The notes under the pieces: model-generated
The model's input: only the letters and a program-made list of their open reading frames with translations
What the model was told of the DNA's origin: nothing
Database searches by the model: none
Shown: piece by piece, positions 3,388 through 25,662 of the stretch
Layout: the number at the start of each line of letters is the position of its first letter
Numbering within the stretch: the first letter of the stretch is position 1
DNA from: an archaeon
GTDB taxonomy: Archaea; Hydrothermarchaeota; Hydrothermarchaeia; Hydrothermarchaeales; BMS3B
Direction: 5' to 3'
Assembly: GCA_026989875.1 (NCBI GenBank)
Contig: JALSIP010000012.1
Span: forward strand, 1 to 33,343
Length of the DNA: 33,343 nt
Position numbers and translations under genes: made by a program

Positions 3388-5331
3388 ATGGGAGAGAATT
3401 TAGTTCTAAGAGAAAAGCGTGAGATAGAAGGTAGAAGCGACTCTGACAAAACCATAGACCCGGCAAATCTGGAGATGTTTGAAATCGCCAGAAAGGCGGG
3501 CATGGAAACAGCCTTTGACCGCCTGCTAAGGCAGGAGCCCAAGTGTCCCTACTGCTTCACCGGCGTGAGCTGCAGGAACTGCGCCATGGGTCCGTGCAGG
3601 ATAACTGCAAAGGCTGACAGGGGGGTTTGCGGTGCAACCGCGGACGTGATGGTGGCGAGGGGGCTGCTCAGGAACACCTTAGCTGGCACAGCATCGCATG
3701 TTGACCACGCCAGACATGTGGCGCTTGCGCTGCTGCATGCAGCAAGGGGTGAGGCACCCTACAGGATAAGGGACGAGGCGAAGCTGCGCCGCCTCGGAGA
3801 GACGCTGGGCATAGAGGGCGCCGGCAGCATGCCTGTGGAAAAGCTTGCAGAGGCTGTGGCTGTACTGGCGCTGCAGGAGATAGGTGCCACACACGCCAAC
3901 GGCGGCAGGTGGCTCAGGATGCACGCAACAGAGGAGCGTTTAGAGACCTGGAGCAGGCTGGACGTGCTTCCGGAGGGTGGCATGCTGCCTGTGCTGGAGG
4001 GGATGCACAGGACCAGCATGGGCAATGACGCAGACCCCGTCAATCTGGTGCTGGGCTGCATAAAGGCAGGCATAGCCGACGGCTTTTACGGGCTGCACAT
4101 GAGCACCGACCTGCAGGACGTGCTCTTCGGCACACCGAAGCCAAAGCTCAGCCAGGCTGGAATGGGCGTGCTCAGGGAGGACTGCGTGAACATCGCCTGC
4201 CACGGGCACGTGCCGGTGCTGAGTGAGAAGATAGTGGAGGCAGCAGAGGCTCTTGAGGAGGAGGCGAAAAAGGCTGGAGCAGCGGGCATAAACGTTGTGG
4301 GTATATGCTGCACGGGGAATGAGATTCTTGAGAGGCAGGGCATCCCTGCGGTGGGCAACGAGCTTAACTCTGAGCTGGTTATAGCCACAGGCGCCCTGGA
4401 TGCGGTGGTTGTGGACTATCAGTGCATCTTCCCGGCTCTGGTACCTGCTGCAAAGTGCTTCCACACGAAGATAATAACCACCGCCCCCACGGTGAAGATT
4501 CCCGGAGCTGAGCACGTGGAGTTTGATGAGCGCAGGGCAGATGAGGTGGCGAGGGAAATCGTGCGGAGAGCGATTGAAAACTTCAGGAGCAGGGACAGGA
4601 GCAGGGTTCACATCCCCGAATTCAGGACCCGGGTGCTTGCCGGCTTCAGCGTTGAGGCTCTGCTGGAGGTGCTCTCAAAGCTCAACAGCAGCGACCCCCT
4701 TGCCCCGCTGGTGGAGGCGATATCCTCCGGGGACGTAAAGGGGGCAGTGGCGATAGTTGGATGCAGCAACCCCCGGGTGCCTCATGACATGATGCATGTG
4801 GAGCTTGCAAAAGAGCTGGTGAAGCGTGATATACTGGTGCTCGCCACAGGCTGTGCCGCCCATGCTCACGCAAAGACGGGGCTGATGAAGCCTGAAGGTG
4901 CAGAAATGGCAGGAGAGCGTCTCAGAAGGGTGCTGAAAGTGCTGGGCGAAGCCGCCGGCATGGGAAGCCTGCCCCCCGTGCTCCACTTCGGCTCCTGCGT
5001 TGACAACTCCAGAATCAGCCAGCTCCTGAAGGCTCTCGCTGAGAGGCTGGGAGTGGCAATAAAGGACCTGCCCGTCGCGGCAAGCGCGCCCGAGTACAAC
5101 ACCGAGAAGGCTCTGAGCATAGGCACCTGGGCGGTGGCGCTAGGCATAACCACCCACGTAAATCCGCTGCCCCGAATCACGGGAAGCGAGGTGGTCACGA
5201 GCTTGCTGACCGAGAAGGCAGAGGAGCTGCTGGGTGCGAGATTTCTGCACAGCCCTGATCCCGTGGAAGCTGCTGACATGCTTGAGGAGGTTATACTGGA
5301 GAAGCGCAGAAAGCTCGGGCTGGAGGGATGA
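3388..5331 (+). CDS. cooS: Anaerobic Ni-containing carbon monoxide dehydrogenase catalytic subunit
   Basis: CooS oxidises CO to CO2 (or the reverse) at a Ni-Fe-S C-cluster. The start at 3388 gives 647 residues, normal for the family; positions below use the 658-residue track numbering. Near the N-terminus are C64-P-Y-C67 (D-cluster) and C73, C76, C81 and C92 (B-cluster). C-cluster ligands are visible in order: ACHGHVP (His), GICCTGNE, DYQCIFP, VGCSNPR, ATGCAAHAH and FGSCVDNSR. The catalytic lysine region PEYNTEKA and the histidine-rich SHVDHARH are also present. The D-cluster cysteines form CX2C instead of the common CX7-8C, as in the Desulfovibrio vulgaris enzyme with a [2Fe-2S] D-cluster. 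No cooF, cooC, ACS/CdhC or hydrogenase gene is adjacent, so its electron partner is unknown. It is single-gene and convergent with the iron permease gene. Confidence 0.95.
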   Translation: MGENLVLREKREIEGRSDSDKTIDPANLEMFEIARKAGMETAFDRLLRQEPKCPYCFTGVSCRNCAMGPCRITAKADRGVCGATADVMVARGLLRNTLAGTASHVDHARHVALALLHAARGEAPYRIRDEAKLRRLGETLGIEGAGSMPVEKLAEAVAVLALQEIGATHANGGRWLRMHATEERLETWSRLDVLPEGGMLPVLEGMHRTSMGNDADPVNLVLGCIKAGIADGFYGLHMSTDLQDVLFGTPKPKLSQAGMGVLREDCVNIACHGHVPVLSEKIVEAAEALEEEAKKAGAAGINVVGICCTGNEILERQGIPAVGNELNSELVIATGALDAVVVDYQCIFPALVPAAKCFHTKIITTAPTVKIPGAEHVEFDERRADEVAREIVRRAIENFRSRDRSRVHIPEFRTRVLAGFSVEALLEVLSKLNSSDPLAPLVEAISSGDVKGAVAIVGCSNPRVPHDMMHVELAKELVKRDILVLATGCAAHAHAKTGLMKPEGAEMAGERLRRVLKVLGEAAGMGSLPPVLHFGSCVDNSRISQLLKALAERLGVAIKDLPVAASAPEYNTEKALSIGTWAVALGITTHVNPLPRITGSEVVTSLLTEKAEELLGARFLHSPDPVEAADMLEEVILEKRRKLGLEG

Positions 5332-22583: not shown

Positions 22584-22648
22584 TCCCCTCCCCCCACCTC
22601 CTCCCTACCTGAAAGTATTTATTTCTGCCACGTCTAAGGTTGTGTGGG

Positions 22649-23593
22649 ATGAGGCTGATACTGCTGCTGCTCGGGCTGCTGCTGTTCTCCGGCTGTGCAG
22701 GCGGAAAAAGCGCTGAGCTCATGGATTATCCCGATGCCCACAGCTACGCTGCGGTTGTAACCATAGACACCGAGGTGGCGGGGGCTGAGGAGATTTCGGG
22801 AGTTGCGGAGGCGCTGCGGGATATGGGCATGAACGCCACCTTTTTTGTGGTTGCTGGATACTACACATCCGGGGAGAAGGCTCTTGAGCCTCTTCGTCAG
22901 TTTGAGGTTGCGAACATGGGATGGAATCAGAGGGAGTGGCAGAATGCAAGCCATGAGGAGCGCAGGCAGCAGGTGCTCAGGGCGCACGAGTGGTTCTCTG
23001 AGAGGAACTTCAGCGTGCGGGGCTTCAGGGCGCCCTACTACAACACCAGCGGCGAGGTGCTGCAGGTGCTCCGCAGGCTGGGATACGTGTATGACTCCTC
23101 CTTCTACTACGGGATTAAACCCTACATGGTGGACGGCATACTTGAGCTGCCTCCCAGCACCAACTACGACATATTCTGGGACCGGGACAAGCTGAGAATC
23201 GCAGGGATGGCAGCCTACCTGACCTTAGAGCGCGCCGGGGATGAGGGCGGCGTGTTTGTGTTCACCACCCACGCTGCAACCGCCTACAGGAGCCTGCAGG
23301 ACTTCAGGAGCTTCCTGCTTTACCTGAAGGAAAGTGGCGCCTGGGTGACCAGCGCGGGAGAGCTTGCGGAGTGGTACCTTGCCAGACAGAAGCTGGAGCT
23401 CAGCTTGGAGGGTGACGAGCTGGTGCTCAGGAATCGTGGCTCAAAGCCTGTCAGGGGTGCCACGGCGGCTGTGACGGGTGCCTCTGACGCGGTGGGGGCG
23501 GAGTACAGGGTGCTCAGAGATGGCAGGCTGTACGTGGTCTTCCCGGAGGTGCCTCCCGGAGGGGAGCGCAGGGTTAAGGTGGTGTGGAGATGA
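22649..23593 (+). CDS. Lipoprotein with a degenerate NodB/polysaccharide deacetylase-like domain
   Basis: About 314 residues. The ATG at 22649 begins MRLILLLLGLLLFSGCAGG, a lipoprotein signal with lipobox LFSGC (C16), so the protein should be anchored on the outer face of the membrane. A NodB-like barrel follows: AVVTIDTEVAGAEE (motif 1), ALRDMGMNATFFVVAGYY, then FEVANMGWNQREWQN where the two metal-binding histidines of motif 2 (HxxxH) are expected but are Asn and Trp, RGFRAPYYNTSG (motif 3), and VFVFTTHAAT (motif 5). The last 60 residues look like a beta domain. Loss of the motif 2 histidines argues against normal metal-dependent deacetylation; it may be a glycan-binding relative. Its TGA overlaps the trpA ATG by 4 bases. 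Confidence 0.78.
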   Translation: MRLILLLLGLLLFSGCAGGKSAELMDYPDAHSYAAVVTIDTEVAGAEEISGVAEALRDMGMNATFFVVAGYYTSGEKALEPLRQFEVANMGWNQREWQNASHEERRQQVLRAHEWFSERNFSVRGFRAPYYNTSGEVLQVLRRLGYVYDSSFYYGIKPYMVDGILELPPSTNYDIFWDRDKLRIAGMAAYLTLERAGDEGGVFVFTTHAATAYRSLQDFRSFLLYLKESGAWVTSAGELAEWYLARQKLELSLEGDELVLRNRGSKPVRGATAAVTGASDAVGAEYRVLRDGRLYVVFPEVPPGGERRVKVVWR

Positions 23594-24423
23594 GCAGGAT
23601 TGGTGAAAGGTTTGAGATGCTCAGGGAGAGGGGTGAGGGGGCGCTGGTGGGCTACCTCACCCTTGGCGACCCAACGCCGGAGGATTCGCTGAAGCTCGCC
23701 AGAGCGCTTGCTGAAGAGGTGGACGTGCTTGAGCTGGGGATACCCTTCTCAGACCCCATCGCCGACGGAAAAACCATTCAGGGTGCCACCGACAGGGCGC
23801 TGCGCGCGGGCACAACACCGGAGCACTGCTTCAGAATCGCAGAGGCTCTCAGGGCAGAAGGCACAGAGATACCGCTGGTGTTCATGACCTACTACAACAT
23901 AGTGCTTCAGTACGGAGAGGAGAGGTTCGTGGAGAGGTGCCGCAGGGTGGGGGTTGACGGGATTCTGGTCACTGACCTGCCGGTGGAGGAGGCGGAGGGA
24001 CTGCGCAGAATCTGCAGGAGGCACGGGGTGGACATGATTTTCCTCATCGCTCCGACGACCACGGAGAAGAGGGTGCAGAGAATAGTGAGGAAAGCCTCTG
24101 GCTTCCTGTACTTAGTGTCGCTGCTGGGCACAACAGGCGCAAGAGACAGGCTCAGCGAGCTTACCATAGAGAAAACGCGCTGGGCAAGGCGGTTTGCTGA
24201 CAGAATCCCTCTTGCCGTGGGCTTCGGAATATCAAAGCCTGAGCACGTGAGGGCGGTGCTGGATGCGGGTGCGGATGGCGTGGTGGTGGGGAGCGCCTTT
24301 GTCAGGCTGGTGGAGAGGTACGGTGCAGAGGCAGCACCCCATCTGGTGAGGCTTGCACGGGAGCTTAAGGGCGGCACGCTTTTGGACGTTAGGCTTGCGG
24401 GTGCAGAGAAGCAGGGGCTGTAG
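23590..24423 (+). CDS. trpA: Tryptophan synthase alpha subunit
   Basis: A 277-residue TIM barrel. The catalytic Glu48 and Asp59 lie in LELGIPFSDPIADGKTIQ, and the rest of the signature is visible: FMTYYNIVLQYGEERF, GILVTDLPVEEAEGL, IFLIAPTTTEKR, FLYLVSLLGTTGAR, VGFGISKPEHVRAV, and GVVVGSAFVRLVE. The ATG at 23590 overlaps the preceding lipoprotein stop (ATGA) with GGTGG upstream. TrpA cleaves indole-glycerol phosphate to indole for TrpB. No trpB or other trp gene is in the window, which is unusual since trpA normally follows trpB. The last three codons (GGG CTG TAG) are also the first ten bases of the tRNA-Pro gene. Confidence 0.96.
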   Translation: MSRIGERFEMLRERGEGALVGYLTLGDPTPEDSLKLARALAEEVDVLELGIPFSDPIADGKTIQGATDRALRAGTTPEHCFRIAEALRAEGTEIPLVFMTYYNIVLQYGEERFVERCRRVGVDGILVTDLPVEEAEGLRRICRRHGVDMIFLIAPTTTEKRVQRIVRKASGFLYLVSLLGTTGARDRLSELTIEKTRWARRFADRIPLAVGFGISKPEHVRAVLDAGADGVVVGSAFVRLVERYGAEAAPHLVRLARELKGGTLLDVRLAGAEKQGL

Positions 24424-24487
24424 GGTAGCCTGGTCATCCTCGCGGCTTTGGGAGCCGTGGACTCCGGTTCAAATCCGGGCAGCCCCA
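24414..24487 (+). tRNA. tRNA-Pro (anticodon UGG)
   Basis: A 74-base cloverleaf can be folded by hand. The acceptor GGGGCTG pairs perfectly with CAGCCCC (24480-24486), with discriminator A at 24487. The D-arm contains GGGTAGCCTGGTCATCCT with the usual A14, G15 and GG. The anticodon stem is GCGGC/GCCGT around the loop TTTGGGA (24447-24453), giving anticodon TGG. The variable region is GGAC, and the T-arm is TCCGG-TTCAAAT-CCGGG. There is no intron and no encoded CCA. Its first ten bases are within the trpA coding sequence, and no clear TATA element is seen upstream inside trpA, so it may be processed from a trpA transcript. Confidence 0.93.
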
Positions 24488-24497
24488 TAGCAAACAC

Positions 24498-25556
24498 TCA
24501 TACACCAAATCTGAGCAGCGCTGCAAGCCCGCCAATCGCCTCAAGCCGCTCACCCGCCTCGTGCTCTGTGCTCACTATGAGCACCTTTGCCCTCACCCCC
24601 TTAGCCCGCTCAATCAGCGAGTCGCTTTCTGGGCTCCTCCTCAGGAAGGCATCGCTTATGAGCAGCACCTCCACCGCGCCGTAGTCTATGGCTCTGCTCA
24701 CCTCCTCGGTGCCGTAGGCTGCCAGCCCATCCCTGGCAAGCTCCGCATAGAAGCGCTCCACCAGCGCCGTCTCTTCCGAGATTCTGCTCTCCTCTAAGAT
24801 GCGCTCTATCACGCGGCGCTTCAGAACCTCCTGCACGGCACTTCTGCCGCTGCAGCCCGTGCCCTCGGTGTGGCAGCGCTTCGCCAGCTCGGGATGGCGC
24901 TCTTTAATCACTTCCAGAAGCGAATCCTTCCAGAACCCTGGACCAGCGAGCACAACCGCCTCAACAGCCTCCTTTTTCACCACCTCTGCAATCTTATCTG
25001 CGGCTTCCGCATAGAACCTCCTCACACCTGCCTCGTGCTCCTTCGCATACCGCTTGCCAGAAATGCTTGCCGAGACCCTTGCCACGTAGTCTACGCCGTA
25101 CCTCCGCACTATGGCGAGCTCTGCCTCACCCTCCTCCACCGCCACTATTAGCACCTTAGCCTCCCTTGAGGCTTTCTCAGCTTCTGCCAGGCGCTCCAGG
25201 TGCCACCTCCTCCACACCTTCTTCTGAACAGTTACGACATCACCCGGCTTGAGCTCAATGGTCTGGTGGGAGCCGAAGGAGACCAGCTCCTCAGGGCCTG
25301 AAATGATTTCACCCGTAATCCTGAGACGCATCGCATAGCTCGTGAACTCCACCTGCTTCACCCGTATCCCGAGAAACATGCGCACCCTCTCCCCCCTGTC
25401 CGCACGGGTGCGCTCCTCATCTCTGATCCTGCGATAGGCGGTGCCGTACACCGCATCCCCCTCCTCTATTATGCTCTTCAGATACCAAAGGTCATCTACG
25501 CTCTCAGGACGGAGCTTTATCCTGCCATCCCTGAGGTCCCGGTGGAGGATTTTCAT
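24498..25556 (-). CDS. pelA: Pelota (Dom34) mRNA surveillance protein
   Basis: The start at 25556 (MKILHRDLRDGRIKLRPESVDDLWYL) gives 352 residues, the usual length; the track start 30 codons upstream has no homology support. Domain order is an N-terminal Sm-like domain (to about residue 130, including QTIELKPGDVVTVQKKVW), a central RNase H-like domain (about 135-265, VLIVAVEEGEAELAIVRRYGV, VVLAGPGFWKDSLLEVIKE), and a C-terminal L7Ae-like domain (about 270-352, AIDYGAVEVLLISDAFLR, VLIVSTEHEAGERLEAIGGLAALLRF). It resembles release factor aRF1 but lacks a GGQ motif. With aEF1A/ABCE1 it rescues stalled ribosomes. It is convergent with tRNA-Pro, with a 10-base gap. Confidence 0.96.
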   Translation of the reverse strand: MKILHRDLRDGRIKLRPESVDDLWYLKSIIEEGDAVYGTAYRRIRDEERTRADRGERVRMFLGIRVKQVEFTSYAMRLRITGEIISGPEELVSFGSHQTIELKPGDVVTVQKKVWRRWHLERLAEAEKASREAKVLIVAVEEGEAELAIVRRYGVDYVARVSASISGKRYAKEHEAGVRRFYAEAADKIAEVVKKEAVEAVVLAGPGFWKDSLLEVIKERHPELAKRCHTEGTGCSGRSAVQEVLKRRVIERILEESRISEETALVERFYAELARDGLAAYGTEEVSRAIDYGAVEVLLISDAFLRRSPESDSLIERAKGVRAKVLIVSTEHEAGERLEAIGGLAALLRFGV

Positions 25557-25662
25557 GCCTTTAATTAGCGGGTGGGAGAAGATAAAGCTTAGCGGTTCGC
25601 TGTGGTATGGGCACAGGCAGGCACATATATGCTTTCCAATGCTCACATCCTGTTAAAAGGCA

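Follow-up and report, generated by a model that had tools for sequence, protein, structure and literature searches.

The window, the whole stretch of 33,343 nucleotides that was analysed, belongs to a draft MAG of a deep-sea Hydrothermarchaeota archaeon (G000; 1.44 Mb in 120 contigs). Within it, the 3' end of trpA runs into the 5' end of a gene for tRNA-Pro(UGG) on the same strand, and the two genes have bases 24414-24423 in common (Table 1). The overlap of ten bases, which the earlier note had described, was borne out by ARAGORN, by the Rfam model RF00005 and by the trpA open reading frame. The predicted trpA product matched PF00290 with 281.5 bits (E 5.8e-84, residues 8-254), a full-length domain match above the cut-off. 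Its frame closes with a TAG codon at 24421-24423 and has no earlier in-frame stop. The tRNA gene scored 53.7 bits against a gathering score of 29 and covered model positions 1-71 without being cut; its cloverleaf is intact and its predicted fold is stable (z -2.8). Among the proline tRNA genes found in the source genome it is the single one with a UGG anticodon; the CGG and GGG copies lie elsewhere.

Table 1 Features at the trpA and tRNA-Pro(UGG) junction (positions in the window)
Feature	Position	Strand	Basis or remark
Polysaccharide deacetylase-like gene, 5' of trpA	22640..23593	+	PF01522, E 3e-10; ATGA overlap with trpA
trpA, tryptophan synthase alpha chain	23590..24423	+	277 aa; ORF and PF00290
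Candidate tRNA promoter element CGCTTTTGGACGTTA	24377..24391 (-37 to -23 from tRNA 5' end)	+	Motif model
TrpA C-terminal tail, genus-specific, codons 264-277	24379..24420	+	Absent in sister genera; outside PF00290 domain
20-base run identical to G002 in otherwise variable trpA 3' end	24380..24399	+	
tRNA-Pro(UGG), anticodon TGG, CCA not encoded	24414..24487	+	ARAGORN and Rfam RF00005
Pelota/eRF1-like gene, convergent	24498..25646	-	PF03463, PF03464, PF03465

The 3' end of trpA reads ...CAG GGG CTG TAG, and the third base of CAG serves as position 1 of the tRNA. The codons GGG CTG TAG thus make up tRNA positions 2-10, with the stop at U8-A9-G10. The placement of the stop at positions 8-10 in the earlier note was correct; its tRNA start at 24411 lay three bases too early, and the three codons do not begin at the first base of the acceptor stem as it had proposed.

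On the 5' side, the ATG of trpA overlaps the stop codon of the preceding polysaccharide deacetylase-like gene (ATGA, 23590-23593), and the two genes are likely cotranscribed. On the 3' side, only ten bases (24488-24497) separate the end of the tRNA from the stop codon of the convergent Pelota-like gene, and no T-run terminator was present in these ten bases.

Conservation of the overlap and a candidate promoter in the trpA tail

Relatives found by way of TrpA were Candidatus Hydrothermarchaeota MAGs. They included a sister species of the same genus (G002, a separate MAG matched to WANG01000048.1), Ca. Pyrohabitans jungbluthii JdFR-16 (matched to G004) and Ca. Hydrothermarchaeum profundi JdFR-18 (matched to G012). 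The TrpA proteins of G000 and G002 are 83% identical. In G002 both genes are intact, the ten shared bases and the reading frame are identical to those of G000, and the tRNA is identical at 74 of 74 bases. A further member of the genus (G001, 62% complete) was uninformative, as both trpA and tRNA-Pro(UGG) are missing from its assembly, which left two informative genomes of the genus. The earlier note had asked whether the overlap is kept in sister genomes: it is kept in the sister species but missing from the sister genera, in which tRNA-Pro(UGG) lies elsewhere without an overlapping coding sequence that ends in TAG at positions 8-10. The overlap thus dates back at least to the divergence of the two species and, on the present sample, is confined to the genus.

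The gene 3' of tRNA-Pro(UGG) differs in G002, and because the Pelota-like neighbour is not conserved there its position appears coincidental. The idea that it serves as a linked rescue factor was rejected on the same ground.

TrpA of the sister genera ends in ...LK(S/A)(G/A)T(R/K)L(G/R), which makes it about 11 residues shorter than in G000 and G002, and the PF00290 domain stops at residue 254, before the tail. Four of the five codon changes between G000 and G002 in the tail are non-synonymous, compared with 43 of 118 in the body of trpA, a difference that is not significant (Fisher P 0.07) but agrees with a tail made of translated promoter and leader. The tail is probably a former tRNA promoter and leader that is now translated. 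The 20-base run identical to G002 is the seventh-longest in trpA and is suggestive only. Conservation at synonymous sites, which spans six codons, was dropped as proof of a promoter because it and the rank of this run were too weak.

Some 23-40 bases before most tRNA genes of G000 and G002 lies a shared motif of the approximate form TTTTA-N4/5-GTTA. Base counts at fixed positions upstream of tRNA genes gave weak GTTA peaks only, because the distance between motif and tRNA varies by several bases. A motif model with variable position was trained on the DNA that precedes the remaining tRNA genes in both genomes, with tRNA-Pro(UGG) excluded, and its consensus was tgTTTTAtaatGTTA. Within trpA, a sequence resembling this lineage tRNA promoter, TTTTGGACGTTA, spans -34 to -23, the usual position for tRNA genes of these genomes. 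The P values of the best hit, taken as the chance of an equal match in 45-base stretches of the same sequence, were about 0.012 for G000 and 0.007 for G002 with the 15-base model, the two genomes not being independent, and 0.13 with a 12-base model. The score is moderate: among 78 tRNA upstream regions, the G000 copy ranks 50 and the G002 copy 43 (15-base model).

Two further observations bear on the region upstream of the tRNA. Every one of the family's nine tRNA-Pro(UGG) genes, including the intergenic copies of the sister genera, has GTTA at -25/-26 (distances counted by hand). The DNA upstream of tRNA-Pro(UGG) in G002 also aligns over 39 bases with the non-coding DNA upstream of the paralogous tRNA-Pro(CGG) of the same genome. 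Among 5997 non-orthologous pairs this alignment ranks fifth, and that of the G000 trpA 3' end with the same G002 tRNA-Pro(CGG) region ranks seventh. The region upstream of tRNA-Pro(CGG) in G000 is a poor match (rank 1261); since the G002 match is strong and the G000 match weak, a recent gene conversion in G002 may lie behind the resemblance.

The motif at -37 to -23, the placement of GTTA and the tRNA-Pro(CGG) alignment together suggest that the tRNA likely has a promoter of its own inside the trpA tail, and that the earlier note was probably wrong to find no clear TATA upstream of it. In T. kodakarensis, dRNA-seq mapped transcription starts that lie, with their BRE-TATA elements, inside upstream ORFs, and cotranscribed tRNAs are documented as well (PMC4247193). 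The arrangement resembles the present one in that the BRE-TATA of a downstream gene lies within the upstream ORF; it differs in that the T. kodakarensis promoters were mapped by dRNA-seq whereas ours is inferred, and in that here the element would serve a tRNA that itself overlaps the ORF (PMC4247193).

Stop codons within tRNA genes and the rpoN overlap

U8 is universal in tRNAs and G10 nearly so. The survey of tRNA genes covered 44 of the 45 RF00005 matches in G000, 34 of 37 in G002 and 33 of 47 in G004. In G000, a stop codon (TAG, TAA or TGA) occupies positions 8-10 in 29 of 44 tRNA genes, and TAG occupies positions 13-15 in 24 of 44; of random stretches of the window, 15.5% hold a stop within 18 bases in any given frame. 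Because of these built-in stops, a coding frame that loses its stop codon ahead of a tRNA gene on the same strand would, for two frames out of three, usually be caught within 15 bases. Whether the trpA overlap exceeds chance is accordingly the weaker point, since tRNA genes often hold stops and overlaps have arisen repeatedly.

TAG was read as a true stop in G000 and G002 because no pyrrolysyl-tRNA synthetase (PylS) passed the family cut-off in either genome. Decoding of UAG as pyrrolysine was rejected on this basis and because no conserved protein continues in frame past the trpA TAG. At the same cut-off none was found in G004 or G016, and one is present in Ca. Hydrothermarchaeum profundi JdFR-18 (G012:C9:1320440-1321159, 294.5 bits).

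A second overlap of this kind was found in the source genome, where tRNA-Pro(GGG) begins inside rpoN (PF01194; G000:C34, L135:3260-3454 and 3445-3519). The overlap is of ten bases, with TAG at positions 8-10, in G000, G001, G002, G004, G006, G007, G009, G011, G012, G015, G016 and G020. It is of 15 bases, with TAG at positions 13-15, in G003, G005 and G021. In G018 and G019 the two genes share a single base, and in G014 they abut with no overlap. In a wider archaeal sample, a tRNA lay within 200 bases of 46 of the 81 rpoN genes parsed, and all 15 rpoN-tRNA overlaps used TAG; two of the overlaps lay outside the class (G108, -10, and G028, -15).

The rpoN/tRNA-Pro(GGG) pair resembles the trpA pair in its shared strand, its ten-base overlap, its TAG at positions 8-10 and a nearly identical tRNA 5' end. 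It differs in that it is found in several families rather than one genus, and in that the motif model found no promoter motif before tRNA-Pro(GGG) in G000 and G002, where these regions took the bottom ranks. From the sequences, the rpoN overlap is older than the trpA overlap, having been kept across the class and in several families.

Other cases were seen. In G016, tRNA-Pro(UGG) begins inside a QueF-like coding sequence with a ten-base overlap and TAG at positions 8-10 (L085:1136-1510, G016:C260), an overlap apparently of separate origin. In G000 and G002, a conserved ORF upstream of tRNA-Gln(UUG) has two bases of its stop codon in common with that tRNA (L118, G000:C20; L161, G002:C118); by eye, we take this ORF to encode a DtxR-like regulator. 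ORFs ending in TAG at position 8 also precede tRNA-Glu(CUC), tRNA-Val(GAC) and tRNA-Lys(CUU) in G000 and tRNA-Met in G002. These were set aside as they look like chance frames: those before tRNA-Val(GAC) and tRNA-Lys(CUU) are not kept in G002, and no known protein was recognised by eye in any of the four translations.

Origin and consequences of the trpA overlap

The trpA overlap is probably a packing overlap of two working genes, in which most of the tRNA comes from a promoter of its own in the trpA tail, and not a regulatory switch. We infer the following order of events. In an ancestor of the genus, the tRNA-Pro(UGG) gene and its promoter would have come to lie directly behind trpA. Loss of the trpA stop codon would then have let the frame continue across the promoter and 5' leader of the tRNA, so that TrpA gained about 11 residues, until it ended at the U8-A9-G10 stop of the tRNA. 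The tRNA would still be transcribed mainly from the promoter in the trpA tail, with RNase P trimming its leader. A transcript that starts upstream of trpA and reads through could give rise to the trpA message in intact form or to a tRNA but not to both, as a by-product of the arrangement.

The earlier note had reasoned that RNase P would remove the trpA stop codon from any joint transcript. The logic is sound: the TAG is a real stop, the genome encodes an RNase P RNA (G000:C95, 184 bits), and a cut at the tRNA 5' end would leave a trpA message that ends inside CAG without a stop codon. Its conclusion, that tRNA maturation and trpA translation exclude each other on each molecule, would hold for read-through RNA; given the candidate promoter, the simplest reading is that the tRNA is transcribed independently. 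If the tRNA has its own promoter, its supply would be independent of the destruction of trpA mRNA, and exclusion would arise only incidentally, on RNA that reads through.

An alternative is joint transcription of trpA and the tRNA, after which RNase P cleavage gives either tRNA or TrpA per molecule, this being the main route to the tRNA and possibly a form of control. The shared strand, the ten-base overlap, the RNase P RNA and the moderate score of the motif in trpA are consistent with a joint transcript, and the promoter-less rpoN/tRNA-Pro(GGG) overlap kept across the class suggests that joint transcripts may exist in the lineage. We nevertheless consider it unlikely: a candidate promoter is found at the expected position and is common to sister genera with an intergenic tRNA, the trpA overlap is limited to one genus, and it would be risky to make the supply of the sole UGG proline tRNA found in G000 depend on losing a biosynthetic message.

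Joint transcription could also proceed without competition, with ribosomes or the folded tRNA deciding the outcome kinetically; the tRNA might be cut out only after trpA had been translated, or the cut trpA message might be translated and its ribosomes rescued by Pelota. The adjoining Pelota-like gene and the stable tRNA fold fit such a scheme, but the neighbour is not conserved in G002 and the sequence carries no sign of such timing, and we regard it as very doubtful. That a misassembly, a frameshift or a tRNA pseudogene gave rise to the apparent overlap, as might be suspected of a draft MAG in 120 contigs, is extremely improbable and largely refuted by the identical junction in the separate MAG G002, the full-length trpA and the intact cloverleaf.

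In mitochondria, the whole strand is transcribed and stop codons can be completed by polyadenylation. We know of no stop-codon repair in the same-strand archaeal case. In tRNA punctuation of the mitochondrial type, excision of the tRNA produces the 3' end of the mRNA and polyadenylation completes the stop; trpA holds a complete TAG, so that completion of its stop is not required.

We found no report of this archaeal overlap between a coding sequence and a tRNA in the literature, which is weak evidence as most subscription journals lay outside the coverage. The nearest described cases that we found are mitochondrial. In metazoan mitochondria, complete stop codons have likewise been predicted inside adjoining tRNA genes, with variable C-terminal tails (PMC3471875). 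The stop codon of tick nad1 was predicted inside a tRNA gene and proved by transcript data to be a misannotation; that tRNA lies on the opposite strand, whereas the trpA case is same-strand and archaeal (PMC3471875). Where mitochondrial tRNA genes overlap, the shared bases can serve one product only and only one is released complete, as would hold for the bases shared here (PMC4284800). The nad1 case warns that an overlap seen in silico does not prove that a frame is used to its end. For trpA, we argue that it is, because the frame is conserved in the sister species and has no earlier in-frame stop.

The overlap is real, is conserved in the genus and appears mechanistically mostly ordinary, with an older and broader companion case in rpoN. 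The either/or idea has more force at rpoN/tRNA-Pro(GGG), because no promoter is visible there, and this pair is the better place to test it: what follows when processing by RNase P and the translation of an essential mRNA both depend on a single set of ten bases is a general question that this pair makes testable. That coding-sequence stops at tRNA positions 8-10, in trpA and above all in the promoter-less rpoN, form an either/or RNA device in Hydrothermarchaeota is a highly speculative proposal; if true, the demand for tRNA would set the amount of RNA polymerase subunit N or of TrpA. More generally, overlaps between coding sequences and tRNA genes should not be treated as annotation errors by default. 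Genes for tRNAs offer ready-made stops (U8-A9-G10 and, in many, T13-A14-G15) to adjoining frames, and adoption of these stops would be a simple route for same-strand overlaps to arise and persist.
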